Part shown: piece after piece, positions 10,845 to 30,021 of the stretch
Position numbering within the stretch: the stretch's first letter is position 1
Layout of the letters: each line of letters opens with the position of its first letter
Origin: an uncultured Oscillospiraceae bacterium
GTDB lineage: Bacteria; Bacillota; Clostridia; Oscillospirales; Oscillospiraceae
DNA: 51,278 bases
Assembly (NCBI GenBank): GCA_905234855.1
Contig: CAJOIU010000007.1
Location: 1 to 51,278 of the forward strand
Reading direction: 5' to 3'
The notes under the pieces: generated by a model
Databases searched by the model: none
The model's input: the letters and a program-made list of their open reading frames with translations, nothing else
Told to the model about the DNA's origin: nothing
Position numbers and translations under genes: made by a program

Positions 10845-11075
10845 TTTGCTGCCGGCGAGGCGACGGACAGCCCCGCGCAGACCGGCACGGCGGCGACGTA
10901 TATCAAGGGCTTCCAGAGCTGGCTCAACACGGCCTACGGCGCCGGGCTGACGGTGGACGGACGCGCAGGGCCGCTGACACGCCGGGCGGCCTGCCGGGCG
11001 CTGCAGACGTATCTCAACACGACTTATTTTGCACTTTTTGCTTTGACGCTGGTGCATATTAATGCACACCAGTGA
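10845..11075 (+). pseudogene. Peptidoglycan-binding domain fragment of a phage-type endolysin or amidase
   Basis: Reading in the frame of 10857 gives GTAATYIKGFQSWLN, then YGAGLTVDGRAGPLTRRA and LQTYLN. That is the pattern of a PG_binding_1 domain as found at the C-terminus of phage amidases and lysozymes (IKxxQxWLN...VDGxxGPxT...A). The frame is open from 10806 but has no start codon or ribosome binding site. After TYLN it runs into unrelated sequence (the 54-bp inverted-repeat relic) before a stop at 11073. It is a stranded 3' piece of a larger gene, with no catalytic domain left. Confidence 0.65.
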
Positions 11076-11120: not shown

Positions 11121-11164
11121 AACAAAAACCCGGGAGCCGTTGGTTATCAACGGCTCCCGGGTTT
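11121..11164 (-). terminator. Terminator of the tRNA-Leu gene
   Basis: A 17-bp perfect inverted repeat (11126-11142 with 11148-11164, 5-nt loop) abuts the encoded CCA end of the tRNA. The minus strand runs out through TTT, giving a strong intrinsic terminator. Confidence 0.85.
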
Positions 11165-11250
11165 GGTGCGGGGAATGGGACTTGAACCCACACGCCCAAT
11201 CGAGCACAGGCACCTCACGCCTGCCTGTCTGCCTATTCCAGCATCCCCGC
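11164..11250 (-). tRNA. tRNA-Leu(GAG), CCA encoded
   Basis: The minus strand starts GCGGGGA and ends TCCCCGC-ACCA, a 7-bp acceptor stem with encoded CCA. The T loop is TTCAAGT between GTGGG and CCCAT. The anticodon stem CAGGC/GCCTG encloses GTGAGGT, giving anticodon GAG (reads CUC/CUU, leucine). A long variable arm, as required for a class II tRNA, follows. A terminator sits at the 3' end. Confidence 0.95.
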
Positions 11251-11333: not shown

Positions 11334-12027
11334 TCAGAATTGATGGATTAGCTCCCGCCGCAGGCGGAGGATGATGCGCTTTTCAAGGCGGCTGATGTAG
11401 CTCTGCGAGATGCCCAGAAGATCTGCGTGTGAGCTCCTCATAGCCGTCGAGACCGAAGCGCATGAGGATGATGGTGCGCTCCCGGTCGTCCAGCCGCGCC
11501 ACCGCCTCCATGAGGAGCTGCCGCTCCACGTCATCCTCCATGGGCTTCATCACCTCGTTGCCGTCGGTGCCGAGGATATCGGAAAGCAGAAGCTCGTTGC
11601 CGTCCCAATCCGTATTCAGCGGCTCATCGATGGAAACCTCCGTCCGACGGGCATTTTTCTTGCGCAGGTACATGAGGATCTCGTTCTCAATGCAGCGGGA
11701 GGCATATGTAGCGAGCTTGATGTTTTTCGCGGGATTGAAGGTGCCGATGGATTTGATGAGGCCGATGGTGCCGATGGAGATGAGATCCTCAATATTCACG
11801 CCGGTGTTCTCAAACCGGCGGGCGATATAAACCACGAGGCGGAGGTTATGCTCGATGAGCGTCTGCCGCGCCTCGTGATCCCCGGCGGCGAGGGCGGAGA
11901 GGGCGGATTCCTCCGCCTCCTTCTCGAGGGGCGGCGGCAATATGTCGCTGCCGCCGATATAGAATACCCGGGGCGCGCGCTGCATCAGCAGACGAAGATC
12001 GAGAAGCAAAAGCTGTAATGTCGTCAT
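11334..12027 (-). pseudogene. sigE: Sporulation sigma factor SigE, frame-disrupted near its C-terminus
   Basis: Encodes the mother-cell sigma factor of early sporulation. From the ATG at 12027 (preceded by GGAAAGGAG) the frame holds the pro-sequence and region 2, for example [32 protein letters not shown] and FATYAS-like [19 protein letters not shown], and then region 4.1. After YEELT (about 11430) the frame goes wrong and stops at 11383 after 214 residues. The expected ending, [19 protein letters not shown], is present in another frame to 11334. Comparison with the usual TQKEVADLLG points to loss of 11 nt between ACA and GCA, in the -35-binding helix-turn-helix. It is either a real inactivating deletion or an assembly error. 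spoIIGA lies 19 bases upstream; sigG, which often follows, is absent. Confidence 0.8.
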
Positions 12028-12046: not shown

Positions 12047-12859
12047 TCAGATAACGGCTTGATAGCTCCCGTCGCCGCCGAGGGAGGCGGGGGCGACGGC
12101 AAGAATGAGATCGTCTCTCGGCTCCCCGTCCACGGTGAGCCGTTCGGGGCGGAAGGCCAGCAGCAGGCGGGTCGTGCCGCCGATGCCCGCATAGGGGAGC
12201 AGCCGCGCGCCGGGGATATTGGGCAGCGCATCCGCCGGAGCGCCGTACAGCAAAGCGGCGGCTGCGCGGTCAAAAAGGGGCGCCACGGCGTCTGCCTCCG
12301 CGATGAGGGCGGCGCAGCCGGTCAAGGGATCGTATAGATCGTTTCCCGTATCTTCCAGCGCCCGGAAGCGGACGGTGCGTCCGTTTTTGCTGAGAACAAC
12401 GGTTCTATAGCGCCGCTCCGCCCGCTTGGCACTGCGCCGGAAAACGAAGCTGATCAGCGCCCAGCATATCGCAAAGGAAAGGATCAGCACCCGCATATCC
12501 AGCCTCACAAGAGGACCTCCGCCCGACGGTATTCCCCGATACAGTCCCGCGGCATAGACCGCCCCGCCGAACAGCGCCGATACGCCCAGAAAGGCGAAAA
12601 AACAGCGCAGCAGATGCTTTTCCTGCCCGAAGGCCGCCAGCGTCATGCCGAGAGCCAGCACAGGATGGAGCAGGGGAAGCCGCAGAAAAGCAAGTCCCGG
12701 CAGCAGCGCCAGACAGCACCAGAGCCCGCCCATCGCGGCGGCCATGACGAATCGGCCCCGGCGATAGGGAAGCGCGCAGATCTTGGCCGTGGCCAGCAGC
12801 AGGAAATAATCGATCCCCAGATTCAGCAGGAACAGCTCGTCGAGATATACGATCCTCAT
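12047..12859 (-). CDS. spoIIGA: Sigma-E processing peptidase SpoIIGA
   Basis: A 270-aa membrane-embedded aspartic protease that cleaves pro-sigma-E in the mother cell after a signal from the forespore. The N-terminal half has about five membrane helices, starting [20 protein letters not shown], typical for SpoIIGA. The cytoplasmic half carries the pepsin-like motif [14 protein letters not shown] with the catalytic aspartate. I chose the ATG at 12859 because family similarity begins exactly there; a longer open frame upstream would run through the pyrH gene on the other strand. No ribosome binding site precedes this ATG and a TACAAT sits only 6 bases away. It forms a unit with sigE, its substrate. 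Confidence 0.88.
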
Positions 12860-16247: not shown

Positions 16248-17327
16248 ATGGGTACGGTTTTATATATCCTTCTCGCGATCCTTATTTTCGGCATCCTTAT
16301 CGGCATCCATGAATGGGGACATTTTATGGCTGCCCGCGCCTGCGGCGTGCGTGTGCTGGAGTTTTCCATGGGCATGGGGCCTGTTCTGTGGCAGAGGGAA
16401 AGCAAAAAAGGTACGATGATCAGCCTTCGGGCGCTGCCCATCGGCGGCTTCTGCGCTATGGAGGGGGAGGACGGCGAGTCCGACGATCCCGCGGCGTTTT
16501 CGAACGCTGCGGCGTGGAAGCGCCTTATCATCCTCGTGGCGGGAGCGTTTATGAACTTTATGTTGGGGCTTCTTCTGATCCTCGTATGCTTTTCCCAGCT
16601 CGACGCCTTCACGACCCCTACCATCACGGGCTTTATGGACGGATGCCCCTATGAGGGGGAAGACGGGCTTATGGAGGGCGACACCTTCTGGAAGATCAAC
16701 GGCCAGCGCATCTATTTTTCCACGGACGTCTCCACCTATCTTGCCCGGCGCACGGGCGATACGTCGGATATCACCGTCATCCGCGACGGGAAAAAGGTCA
16801 CGCTGGAGGATTATCCCATGATCCAGCGGGAGTACGTTGATGAGGAGACCGGCGAAACGGCGATGTATTACGGCCTGCACTTCGGTGTGAAGGAGACGGG
16901 CTTCGGCGCGAAGCTGCGGTACTCGTGGTACTGCGCGATGGATTTCGTGCGCACGGTTTGGCTGGGGCTGGAGGATCTCGTTACCGGCGCGGTGGGCGTC
17001 AAGCAGATGACCGGCGTCGTTGGCATCGTGGGCATGATCGCGGACGTAGGCACCCAGTCGGAAACGTCCTATGACGCCTTTTTGAATATTGCGTATCTGA
17101 CGGCGTTCATTGCCATCAACCTCGCGGTGATGAACCTGCTGCCGCTGCCCGCGCTGGACGGCGGACGGGTGTTTTTCCTCCTTATCACATGGGCGCTGGA
17201 GCATGTCCTCCGGCGGCGGATCGAACCGAAATACGAGGCGTATATCCATACCGCGGGGCTCGTAGCGCTTATGGGACTTATGGTATTTGTGATGTATAAC
17301 GATATTGCGCGGCTCATAACGGGGTGA
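16248..17327 (+). CDS. rseP: Site-2 intramembrane metalloprotease RseP
   Basis: A 359-aa integral-membrane zinc protease that cleaves membrane-anchored anti-sigma factors and signal-peptide remnants (RasP in Bacillus). HEWGH at residues 21-25 in the first helix provides two zinc ligands, and NLLPLPALDGGRVFF near residue 300 provides the third (Asp). A single PDZ domain lies between, around residues 125-190, following ITGFMDGCPYEGEDGLMEGD. The length fits Firmicutes members with one PDZ. The start follows GGAAAGG. It lies 58 bases after dxr and 4 bases before ispG. Confidence 0.94.
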   Translation: MGTVLYILLAILIFGILIGIHEWGHFMAARACGVRVLEFSMGMGPVLWQRESKKGTMISLRALPIGGFCAMEGEDGESDDPAAFSNAAAWKRLIILVAGAFMNFMLGLLLILVCFSQLDAFTTPTITGFMDGCPYEGEDGLMEGDTFWKINGQRIYFSTDVSTYLARRTGDTSDITVIRDGKKVTLEDYPMIQREYVDEETGETAMYYGLHFGVKETGFGAKLRYSWYCAMDFVRTVWLGLEDLVTGAVGVKQMTGVVGIVGMIADVGTQSETSYDAFLNIAYLTAFIAINLAVMNLLPLPALDGGRVFFLLITWALEHVLRRRIEPKYEAYIHTAGLVALMGLMVFVMYNDIARLITG

Positions 17328-17331
17328 GGAA

Positions 17332-18396
17332 ATGACGAGAGAACAGACAAAGCAGATCATGGTGGGCGGCGTCCCCGTGGGCGGCGGCGCGCCCGTCACC
17401 GTCCAATCCATGTGCAACACCAAAACGCAGGACGCGGCGGCGACTCTTGCCCAGATGCGCGAGCTGCGTGACGCGGGCTGCGATATCATCCGCGTGGCCG
17501 TGCCGGATATGGCCGCGGCGCAGGCGCTGCCGACGATCATGGCGGACGCGCCCATGCCCGTAGTGGCTGATATCCATTTCGATCACCGTCTCGCGCTCAT
17601 GGCGGCGGAGGCGGGGGTGAGCGCCGTGCGCATCAATCCCGGCAACATCGGCGCGCCGGAGCGTGTAGAGGCGGTCGCCCGCGCTTGCCGGGAGCGGGGC
17701 ATCCCCATCCGCATCGGCGTGAACTCCGGCTCCGTGGAAAAATCCGTGCTGGCAAAGCACGGCGGCCCTACGGCCGAAGCGCTCGTCGAGAGCGCCGCGG
17801 GGGAGATCGAGGCGCTGCGAGGCTTCGGGTTCGATGATATCGCCCTGTCCGTCAAGGCGTCGGACGTGCCGACGGCCGTGGCGGCCTATCGCCTCGCGGC
17901 GGAGCGCTTTTCCTGCCCGCTGCATGTCGGCGTCACCGAGGCGGGGACAAGCTATGGCGGCCTCGTCAATTCCTCCGTCGGTATCGGCACGCTGCTCATG
18001 GAGGGCATCGGCGATACGATCCGCGTGAGCCTTACCGCCGATCCCATCGAGGAAGTCCGCGCCGGACTGTCTATCCTGCGCGCCTGCGGTCTGCGAAAGC
18101 AGGGCGTGAGGTTCGTTTCCTGCCCCACCTGCGGACGGACGAGCATCGATCTCATTGGCCTTGCCAAGGCCGCGGAGGCTCGGCTTTCCGGCCTTTCCCG
18201 CGATATCACCGTGGCGGTGATGGGCTGTGAGGTGAACGGCCCCGGCGAGGCGGCCTCCGCCGATTTCGGCGTGGCGGGCGGCAAGGGCTTCGGCAGCCTT
18301 TTCAGGAAGGGTCGGGTCGTGAAGACAAGGATCCCCGAAGCGGAGCTGCTGGACGCGCTCATGGCGCTCATCGAGGAAACGCCCGACGGCGAATGA
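17332..18396 (+). CDS. ispG: 4-hydroxy-3-methylbut-2-enyl diphosphate synthase
   Basis: A 354-aa Fe-S enzyme of the MEP pathway that reductively opens 2-C-methyl-D-erythritol 2,4-cyclodiphosphate to HMBPP, using flavodoxin or ferredoxin. The TIM-barrel start reads VMVGGVPVGGGAPVTVQSMC-like with QSMCNTKTQDAAAT, then INPGNIG, LVNSSVGIGTLL, and the cluster ligands FVSCPTCGRT and AVMGCEVNGPGEA near residues 260-305. The length is typical for the short bacterial form. It is coupled tightly to rseP (GTGAGGAA before the ATG). Confidence 0.96.
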   Translation: MTREQTKQIMVGGVPVGGGAPVTVQSMCNTKTQDAAATLAQMRELRDAGCDIIRVAVPDMAAAQALPTIMADAPMPVVADIHFDHRLALMAAEAGVSAVRINPGNIGAPERVEAVARACRERGIPIRIGVNSGSVEKSVLAKHGGPTAEALVESAAGEIEALRGFGFDDIALSVKASDVPTAVAAYRLAAERFSCPLHVGVTEAGTSYGGLVNSSVGIGTLLMEGIGDTIRVSLTADPIEEVRAGLSILRACGLRKQGVRFVSCPTCGRTSIDLIGLAKAAEARLSGLSRDITVAVMGCEVNGPGEAASADFGVAGGKGFGSLFRKGRVVKTRIPEAELLDALMALIEETPDGE

Positions 18397-27711: not shown

Positions 27712-30021
27712 TCATAACCGTTCCTCCACCCGGATAGCAAGCGCCGTCATGTCGTCCGCGTTGCCGAAGCGCCCGGCGGCGGCGCGCAGCGCCTGCTTGG
27801 CGATATCCTTCACCTCGACGCCATCAGAGCCGAGCAGGATCTCCCGAAGCCAGCCGTCGCCCCGCTCGGCCAGCACCCCGTCCGAGGCAATGAGCGCCAC
27901 ATGCCCCGGCCGCAGCTTCATGCGGTATACGTCCGGCGCGGCGCTGTCGCCGGAGAGCATCCCTGCGGCGAGGGAGCTGCATTTCACCCGCCGGACGGTA
28001 CGCCCGGTTTTGACATACGAGGGGGCCGCGCCGTATTTATAAAAGCACGTCTCGCCGGTATAGAGGTCGATGCAGCAGAGATCCACCGTGGCATAGCCCC
28101 ATTCCTCGCCGTTTTTCAGCATGGCGGCGGCGTTCAGCAGGCGCATGGCGCACAGCGGCTCCACGCCCGCCCGCAGCAGCGCTTCGAGGATATCCACCGC
28201 GCAGGAGCTCTCCCCGGCGGCTGCTTCCCCGGTTCCCATCCCGTCGGAGAGAATGACGCATAGAAGCCCGCTGTCAGTCTTAAAATACGTTTCCCGGTCG
28301 CCGGAAACGGCTTCGCCCTCCTTTTTCAGTGCAGCGATGCCTACGGAGACCGCCAGCGGCTCCGCCTGCCGCAGGAGGATGCGTCCTTTTTCCTGCGGAT
28401 CCACCCGGCACAGCCGTACCCCCAGCGCGGCGGACAGGCGTTCCAGATACTCCGGCTCGTCAGCCAGCGACTCGATCTCCGCCCCCTCCAGCGCAATGCG
28501 CAGGCGGCCGTGACCGTCCCGGAAGGCGGAGCATGCGCCGTCCAGCTCACGGCTTTTGAGATAGCGGATGAGGCGTCGCTCCGCTGCCGCGTCCGGCCCC
28601 GCCGCGCCGGAGAGCTGCCGCGCAGCGTCGCTCATGACCTCCGCCATATCCAGAAACTGCCCATAGGCCGCCATACGCCCCTCACGCAGCCGCGCCGCGT
28701 ATTGGCGGCGATACATCATTCCCCGCAGCTCGCCGTTCACCGTGCTGGCGAAGGCGCCGGGGGCGACGCATTTCTGCCGGAAGGAAACGGGCAGATCGCT
28801 CACCGCCAAGGTGCCGCGGCGGGTCATGCTCTCCGCGGCGGAGGCAAGGGACTGCACCGTTTCCGCGTAATCCTTTTTCCAGCATTGCGTCTTGCCGGCG
28901 CAGGAGCGGCATACGATATCCGCCGCCCGATCGAATACGGCGGTCACGTCGGCGTTTTCCCTGCGGGGAGGCGGCTCCGCCGCGGCGGCCTCATACAGCC
29001 GCCGGAAACCAGCGGCAAGTTGGTCGAGACGCTCCGCCTGATAATAGCGGAACGCGGTCTCCCCATGACCGCGACCCACCCGAAGCAGAGACCCCACCGG
29101 CGTGAGCGCCGCTTGGGGCAGGAGCATGAATACCACTGTGGCGGCAAAGCACTCATACAGCGCTGCGATAGGCGCTCCGCCGCCCCAGCCCAGAAGGACG
29201 GATACGGCGTTGCCCGCGCAGAAGGCCACAGAGAAGGTGAGACGGCCATAGCGGTGAAGAGCGCCGGAAAACAGCCCTGCCAGTGCATAGGCCGCGGTGA
29301 AAAAAAGCTGATCGCTCCCGGCCATATCCATGCCGAGACCCATGGCCGCTCCCGCCGAGCAGCCGGTCAGCGGGCCGCCGCAGAAGCCCGCCGCCATCAC
29401 GGCCAGCATGGCAAGGAACCTACCCACAGACAGGGTGTTCCAGAGACGGATGGAGGCAAGCCCCATCAGCCCGCAGGCGGCAAATATGGCGCAGCTTATG
29501 CTGTGCCGCAGCTCGGCCGTTTCTCCCGTCAGTGACTCGGGGGAGAGGACGAGGCCGAAGAAATAGGCGCAGCCTCCCGCCAGCACCGTCTCCATAAAGA
29601 TCCGGGTAGGTCCGGGAACGCCGCCCAGCGACTCATCGATATACAGGATCCCGGTCAGCGCCGTGAACCCAGCCGCCAGTACCGGCATGAACCATCGGCT
29701 CCCACGGAATTTCTGTCCCCGGGCCACGAATCCGACGGTAAACAGCAGAAAGCATGTGGCAAGATAGCGAAGGCCGTAACGGATGCCGCCGGAGATGAGA
29801 TACCCCAACGCCGCGCCCCCGAGACAGGCCGCGCCGAAAAGATCCGCGCCCGCCGCGGCTACCGCCGCGAGACCGAAGGGACCGCAGGCGGAAAACAGCC
29901 GTCCTGCCCCCATGGCCGTGCCCAGCAGGAAGCCACCCGCGTATCGCAGCGCCGCCTTCGCCTCCGGCGAACGCAGCCGCAGGCCGCTTCGCCGTTCAAT
30001 CCATTGCGTCCAAATTGCCAT
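27712..30021 (-). CDS. spoIIE: Stage II sporulation protein E, membrane serine phosphatase
   Basis: A 769-aa membrane phosphatase that, in Bacillus, localises to the polar septum and dephosphorylates SpoIIAA, freeing sigma-F in the forespore; it also acts with FtsZ in septum placement. The first 310 residues hold about ten membrane helices. A central regulatory region follows, with a Cys-rich segment (IVCRSCAGKTQCWKKDY, typical of SpoIIE). The C-terminal PP2C-type domain (about 560-769) has LSDGMGTGEAA, SDGVLAERGD and NADDMTALAI with the metal-binding aspartates. It appears intact, unlike sigE in the same window. The start is preceded by GGAGGCGGAAG, and a candidate promoter with a Spo0A-like box lies upstream. 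Confidence 0.94.
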   Translation of the reverse strand: MAIWTQWIERRSGLRLRSPEAKAALRYAGGFLLGTAMGAGRLFSACGPFGLAAVAAAGADLFGAACLGGAALGYLISGGIRYGLRYLATCFLLFTVGFVARGQKFRGSRWFMPVLAAGFTALTGILYIDESLGGVPGPTRIFMETVLAGGCAYFFGLVLSPESLTGETAELRHSISCAIFAACGLMGLASIRLWNTLSVGRFLAMLAVMAAGFCGGPLTGCSAGAAMGLGMDMAGSDQLFFTAAYALAGLFSGALHRYGRLTFSVAFCAGNAVSVLLGWGGGAPIAALYECFAATVVFMLLPQAALTPVGSLLRVGRGHGETAFRYYQAERLDQLAAGFRRLYEAAAAEPPPRRENADVTAVFDRAADIVCRSCAGKTQCWKKDYAETVQSLASAAESMTRRGTLAVSDLPVSFRQKCVAPGAFASTVNGELRGMMYRRQYAARLREGRMAAYGQFLDMAEVMSDAARQLSGAAGPDAAAERRLIRYLKSRELDGACSAFRDGHGRLRIALEGAEIESLADEPEYLERLSAALGVRLCRVDPQEKGRILLRQAEPLAVSVGIAALKKEGEAVSGDRETYFKTDSGLLCVILSDGMGTGEAAAGESSCAVDILEALLRAGVEPLCAMRLLNAAAMLKNGEEWGYATVDLCCIDLYTGETCFYKYGAAPSYVKTGRTVRRVKCSSLAAGMLSGDSAAPDVYRMKLRPGHVALIASDGVLAERGDGWLREILLGSDGVEVKDIAKQALRAAAGRFGNADDMTALAIRVEERL

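Follow-up and report, generated by a model that had tools for sequence, protein, structure and literature searches.

A frame break in sigE and recombinase-bearing inserts in sigG of an uncultured Oscillospiraceae bacterium and its relatives

The sigma-E gene (sigE) of an uncultured Oscillospiraceae bacterium carries, in its assembled sequence, a frame break that is not due to chance, and the sigma-G gene (sigG) of the same genome is divided in two by a large insert. We regard the sigE break as probably a loss-of-function allele of very recent origin, the rest of the sporulation programme looking intact wherever it has been assembled. A lesion of this sort is of a known kind; the novelty lies with the DNA that splits sigG, which from its sequence looks built to be cut back out. 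Here we lean, on balance, towards a reading in which serine-recombinase elements of several kinds (defence-carrying, metabolic 6.4-kb, phage-like and the 13.9-kb insert of this genome) have repeatedly used sigG as their attachment site and at least one genus keeps its element by descent, so that spore formation would need excision in the germ line followed by re-entry after germination, i.e. a reversible switch.

The window (the whole 51,278-nt stretch of DNA that was analysed) contains the sigE locus and the following features:

11334..12027, minus strand: sigE (sporulation sigma-E), frame broken (TIGR02835 in two frames, translation, and alignment with 26 relatives)
11426..11427, minus strand: point where 11 nt are missing, where the region 4.2 helix-turn-helix begins (gap of 11 alignment columns, shared by none of the 26 relatives)
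11334..11426, minus strand: out-of-frame sigE tail, with recognition helix and C-terminus still encoded and without premature stop (TIGR02835 203-232, 36.7 bits; pN/pS 0.057)
11164..11250, minus strand: tRNA-Leu(gag), directly downstream of sigE (ARAGORN)
12047..12859, minus strand: full-length spoIIGA, encoding the sigma-E processing peptidase, on the upstream side of sigE (TIGR02854 2-287 of 293, 111 bits, curated cut-off of 209.55 not reached; start codon picked by eye)
27712..30021, minus strand: spoIIE, full length (TIGR02865 6-763 of 764, 321.1 bits, curated cut-off of 490.8 not reached)

The gene sits on the minus strand between spoIIGA and the tRNA-Leu gene, and the adjoining spoIIGA (a TIGR02854 match just upstream, below its cut-off) agrees with its identity as sigma-E. 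Profile searches found the family in two pieces, one frame matching TIGR02835 positions 12-206 (302.1 bits, window 11410-11994) and another positions 203-232 (36.7 bits, window 11343-11432); a continuous match above the curated cut-off (348.6 bits) is lacking, and we treat this sigE as a broken member of the family. When it was aligned with 26 same-genus loci (L013-L038, all those fetched for the genus), a single gap of exactly 11 nt appeared at 11426/11427 of the window. The initial annotation, made from the letters of the DNA, had placed an 11-nt deletion in the -35-binding helix-turn-helix and called for comparison with sister strains. Place and size proved right, the gap lying at the start of the helix-turn-helix of region 4.2, and the deletion is shared by none (0/26) of the aligned genes.

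The first frame yields a product of 214 codons that stops at 11383-11385, its last 14 codons being out of frame, and the other frame runs for 30 residues (11426-11337) before a stop. In the region 4.2 helix-turn-helix, the gap costs the first helix some of its residues, and the recognition helix is lost through the change of frame. In sigma factors, region 2 is responsible for -10 recognition and core binding, and the recognition helix of region 4.2 contacts the -35 element. The truncated sigma-E would accordingly be expected to keep region 2 and to lose its -35 contact. Under the favoured reading, an 11-nt deletion shifting the frame at the start of this helix-turn-helix would yield a pro-sigma-E that has region 2 and no recognition helix for the -35 element, and cells with the allele should arrest early in the mother-cell programme. 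We infer that at least some cells carry the deletion and do not sporulate.

An unbroken sigE match was found by family search in 30 of the 34 other genomes of the genus. In one of the remaining four (G014) the match is cut by contig ends, and G019, G023 and G029 gave no sigE match; the operon of G019 is cut inside sigE by a contig end, and that of G023 and G029 was not found in their assemblies. No second copy of the region from the same species was present among the 80 genome-contig loci listed, which are at most 74% identical in their best protein segment.

Both sides of the gap are as constrained as in relatives with an intact gene. Before it, the median pN/pS against relatives is 0.216 (0.21-0.42 among the relatives themselves), and after it 0.057 (0.03-0.24 among the relatives). 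No second lesion was seen in sigE, and pN/pS is not raised on either side. Four of 160 otherwise invariant columns are changed here, compared with 0-3 in any single relative, and this genome forms the longest branch of the sigE tree. Since the tail is as constrained as the head, the lesion must be very recent or else absent from the organism.

The second of these possibilities, under which sigE is whole in the living species, the gap stemming from strain mixture or local misassembly, is unlikely in our judgement, though it is the rival that we take most seriously. It would account for normal constraint over the whole gene and for our having seen no other frame break; moreover, the assembly is fragmentary (44 contigs, 82.6% complete) and is the sole copy of the species at hand. 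On the other hand, the gap is clean, single and 11 nt long, and a gap of that length is not a usual read error. Frame breaks were also sought across 208 kb of this genome, at 37 distinct loci that each had a relative sharing at least 55% identity, a break being counted when a second piece at least 55% identical lay within 300 bases. None was flagged besides that in sigE, the 36 other loci being spread over contigs C5, C7, C9, C26 and C36. The two sigG halves and possibly some antisense frames are among the tested loci, in a few cases just 71-82% of the relative's frame is matched, and the test would overlook breaks that are small or poorly conserved. With one break among 37 loci a generally error-prone assembly is not supported, though there may be a local error at sigE. 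Further frame changes that had appeared in a smaller first comparison were dropped, since antisense frames, or neighbouring genes whose frames run together, seemed to explain them.

That the two sigE frames could be functional as they stand, by programmed frameshifting or as two separate products, strikes us as scarcely credible. Constraint on the out-of-frame tail speaks for it, but the deletion also takes residues of the first helix of the helix-turn-helix, and frameshifting alone would not restore the family sequence; besides, the break occurs in this genome only.

The initial annotation went further and read the broken gene, if real, as an early step in loss of sporulation, in a lineage that should be unable to form spores with spoIIGA and spoIIE still looking intact. 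As to these two genes, both are full length, as it held, and both score below their curated cut-offs. Elsewhere in the genome the match to spoIIAB is above cut-off, and those to spoIIAA (9-101 of 106) and sigF (1-230 of 231) are below theirs. Of the spoIIIA genes, spoIIIAA (TIGR02858, 225 bits) is below cut-off and spoIIIAH (PF12685) above it; a spoIIIAE-like match is present, in a family whose cut-off is reached in 0/35 genomes of the genus, and the other spoIIIA frames are in step with those of a relative (G002). One gene for a small acid-soluble protein (SASP) is above cut-off. A SASP match (L180, G000:C26:694-846) ends at profile position 51 of 59, as do those of four relatives at 50-51, a variant C-terminus.

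Two genes could not be matched in this genome. One is the sigK-like gene (the second-ranking TIGR02835 match, E about 1e-53 to 1e-62), which 31 of the 34 other genomes of the genus possess, a further one having it split (32/34 in all); the other is spoIVA, above cut-off in 31/34. Together with the broken sigE and the split sigG, they are what favours an established loss of sporulation in the lineage, sigE being one among several decayed or lost genes. In G002 the sigK-like gene and spoIVA lie about 13 kb apart, and in that gene order contig C36 of our genome (8151 bp) begins, on the 3' side of sigK, roughly 70 bases beyond the match and ends some kilobases short of spoIVA. We did not accept the missing pair as further decay, since both would lie past the ends of this short contig; their absence can be an assembly gap and counts for little as a sign of loss. 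On the 5' side, the counterpart of the G002 DNA that lies 1.5 kb upstream of sigK is on contig C5; this contig does not end there and continues for some 58 kb, so that the gene order differs at that point, a circumstance on the side of loss.

Nor is a split sigG itself a sign of sporulation loss, because relatives split at the same site mostly have a whole sigE: an unbroken match was found in 11 of the 12 genus relatives with a split sigG, the twelfth (G029) being without an assembled sigE, and the sigG halves of these relatives are constrained. Several independent lesions or relaxed constraint, the marks of a decayed lineage, were not found here, and with no second lesion or further decay within sigE, normal pN/pS and no other break among the 37 loci, the claim of lineage-wide loss is not supported; we consider it very improbable. 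A single deletion in one assembly amounts at most to one very young null allele, by which decay of a lineage is not demonstrated, and an early step in sporulation loss is possible for one strain. Single-gene loss of sporulation in Spo0A-positive Firmicutes has been described (Galperin et al. 2012, PMC3533761, in the sections of that paper on which we draw); unlike those cases, the present one comes from one assembly and is known from sequence alone, fixation of the lesion not being in evidence. By itself the sigE allele is ordinary, at most another null mutation of an easily arising kind, and it serves as a caution that one frame break in a fragmentary assembly does not equal loss of sporulation.

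The split gene is identified as sigG by TIGR02850/NF006071. Its two halves lie on the minus strand of contig C9 (G000:C9:10715-25379; L123, L124):

C9 25080-25379, minus strand: sigG N-half (TIGR02850 positions 2-101)
C9 10715-11206, minus strand: sigG C-half (TIGR02850 positions 90-253)

The insert between the junctions measures 13,909 bp. Its ends form an inverted repeat with 14 of 15 bases matching (read by eye), and the gene of a 567-residue large serine recombinase (Resolvase, Recombinase and Zn-ribbon domains) stops next to the C-half. Among the cargo are a class III fructose-bisphosphatase gene (fbp) and a P-type ATPase. This fbp looks host-like, with 74-76% DNA identity in eight relatives, where it lies on other contigs than sigG wherever sigG could be placed; in G001 it is on the contig of the C-half, 19 kb away. 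The cargo may therefore have been picked up from host DNA, and the case for treating this particular insert as self-contained is the weaker for it.

At the same codon pair, a manual count over 35 genus genomes gave 13 split (this one included), 18 continuous and 4 undecided (G017, G005, G016 and G024). Six of the split genes were recognized by one half only, five have their halves on separate contigs, and in the remaining two, from this genome and G021, a single contig contains both. The other 12 split genomes share one insert family, whose N-side end could be read in nine and whose C-side end in nine; with up to two mismatches allowed, nine of the 35 genus genomes contain the C-side end, always at sigG and nowhere else. 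A distance of 15,985 bp separates the halves in G021 (L205, G021:C13:5001-25000), and the insert there encodes a recombinase (Resolvase, Recombinase and Zn-ribbon domains) that is 33-34% identical to ours, along with a ParB-like protein, an HTH protein, a SIR2-domain protein and a type III methyltransferase accompanied by a helicase/restriction-like partner (weak match).

Between species, recombinase or ParB DNA of this 12-genome family is 91-98% identical, compared with 85-93% for the sigG C-halves of the same species. In 20 of the 21 pairs compared the element gene was the more alike (the exception being G003-G001), and species with split and unsplit sigG are intermixed on the sigE tree (27 genomes), which together indicate that the family moves between species. 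Halves of split sigG in the genus have a pN/pS like that of unsplit sigG, a constraint that may predate the insertions. An exact-pattern search of viral contigs returned no joined circle form of the 12-genome family.

To widen the survey we took 127 genomes of the order (completeness of at least 90% required, this genome added). By manual count sigG is continuous at this site in 110 of them, split in five and not found in 12. The split ones are our genome, three of a genus of the same family (here g29; 3/3 sampled) and G037, which belongs to another family. We do not count the last as a proven split, as its 66-kb contig has no N-half and its recombinase lies about 2.7 kb from the C-half; a further candidate (G098) was rejected, its contig ending just before the site, which reads through. 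Beside sigE, a sigG match of more than 55% identity accompanies 52 of the 80 sigE loci listed, and all 52 are continuous across the site.

In g29 both halves are on one contig, 6.4 kb apart (L236, L237, L238, L239). The whole 7.5-kb stretch is 87-90% identical among the three species and alike in gene content, which fits a split inherited by common descent. Genes of the 6.4-kb element include a Fe-alcohol-dehydrogenase-like gene, a ferredoxin, the recombinase and an aldehyde:ferredoxin-oxidoreductase-like gene (partial match, below cut-off), as well as two that we take to be MoaD-like and ThiF-like. Nonsynonymous differences between these species number 1-3 in the N-half and 1-4 in the C-half of sigG (pN/pS 0.01-0.045), compared with a pN/pS of 0.06-0.36 for the four insert genes measured. 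No whole sigG was found in the g29 genomes, where the C-half is the best match and a whole gene would rank top. Strict constraint while split argues that the divided gene of g29 is in use.

Viral collections contain a similar arrangement. Three IMG/VR contigs, predicted to be viral (4.0, 7.2 and 66.7 kb) have a recombinase followed directly by the sigG C-half, their recombinases being identical over the match and thus of one element type, and a fourth has a different recombinase beside the N-half (L249, L250, L251 and L257 for the four). Near the recombinase of the 66.7-kb contig are genes for a dUTPase, an anaerobic ribonucleotide reductase and a methyltransferase, as in phages, and sigG seems to be a prophage site as well. 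Used as sole query, the recombinase of the 12-genome family had no relative among the viral contigs. An alignment of five recombinases recovered 22 viral-contig loci, with a sigG half beside the recombinase in 4/22; use of sigG is not evident for most of them. The C-half junction is the same in GenBank MT839977.1, an unverified record from human faeces deposited as phage, whose recombinase stretch contains a stop. In at least 12 faecal 'Bacteriophage sp.' records (MT83xxxx) a sigG-like gene is matched along 98-100% of its length with 51-71% identity; these records resemble host DNA.

Joining the flanks in silico gave a whole open sigG frame of 252-255 residues in all five genomes that have the halves on one contig (G000, G021, G084, G110 and G154). 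This recalls the skin elements in sigK of B. subtilis and C. difficile, in which, as presented in the portions used of PMC5025042 and PMC4191935, a sporulation sigma-factor gene is likewise split by a large-serine-recombinase insert and precise removal restores the frame. As in a skin-type element, the insert divides a sporulation gene at one site with both halves kept (in those five genomes), a site-specific serine recombinase lies inside and beside the junction (G000 and G021; homologues in g29 and the IMG/VR contigs), and the split gene is under selection, clearly so in g29, the insertions in the genus being possibly recent. Unlike skin, several unrelated cargoes share one codon pair, and the host gene is not one that acts in the terminal mother cell. 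Sigma-G acts in the forespore, the germ line (PMC4191935 as far as used here, and established knowledge), so that removal would fall in the germ line.

The gin element in gerE of B. cereus (PMC5595907, in the part consulted) is another insert that has serine recombinases and no phage genes in a sporulation gene; it is described there as having three recombinases in 28.6 kb, in a mother-cell gene. By comparison, the 6.4-kb element in sigG has an aldehyde:ferredoxin-oxidoreductase-like operon and one recombinase was found. Excision of SP-beta is confined to the mother cell, whereby the spore retains the prophage, and the intervening elements described so far act on mother-cell genes, to judge from the passages drawn on in PMC4191935, PMC5595907 and PMC10747680. 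They are tolerated, in the account excerpted from PMC4191935, because the mother cell dies and excision is not inherited. At sigG, which acts in the forespore, an excision would be inherited.

If sigG is such an attachment site, the recombinase and a directionality factor would excise the insert in sporulating cells, by analogy with skin, SP-beta and gin. A serine integrase re-integrates without its directionality factor. Persistence by descent in g29 would then come about if the circle stayed in the spore and re-entered after germination. Alternatively, the two sigma-G pieces may work together, or excision may take place before septation, in some cells only. Should the attachment-site reading be correct, an element in sigG needs a cycle of removal and re-entry, or else another route to sigma-G, and an element long kept in a forespore gene would break the mother-cell-only rule. 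Gene-presence scans, for their part, could misjudge sporulation capacity where sigG reads as two fragments. No element in sigG is described in the titles and opening abstract lines of the papers that searches of the open-licence PubMed Central literature brought up, and catalogues of recombinases, e.g. PMC10083194, may list one.

Some minor observations concern sigK-like genes elsewhere and the rest of the window. In G007, which also has a split sigG, about 2.8 kb separates two pieces of the sigK-like gene, and a recombinase-like stretch lies in this interval, a skin-like arrangement (G007:C34:4095-7493, L191). Two other sigK-like genes have one in-frame stop each, TAG in G035:C17:28998-29633 and TGA in G059:C4:140955-141590. 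Beside the tRNA-Leu gene of the window, an open stretch on the plus strand (10857-11072) resembles by eye the end of a phage or cell-wall lysin, with no Pfam match. Finally, two adjacent genes of the window (16248-17327 and 17332-18396) correspond to a single frame of 712 residues in G006 (G006:C1:85515-87650, L140).
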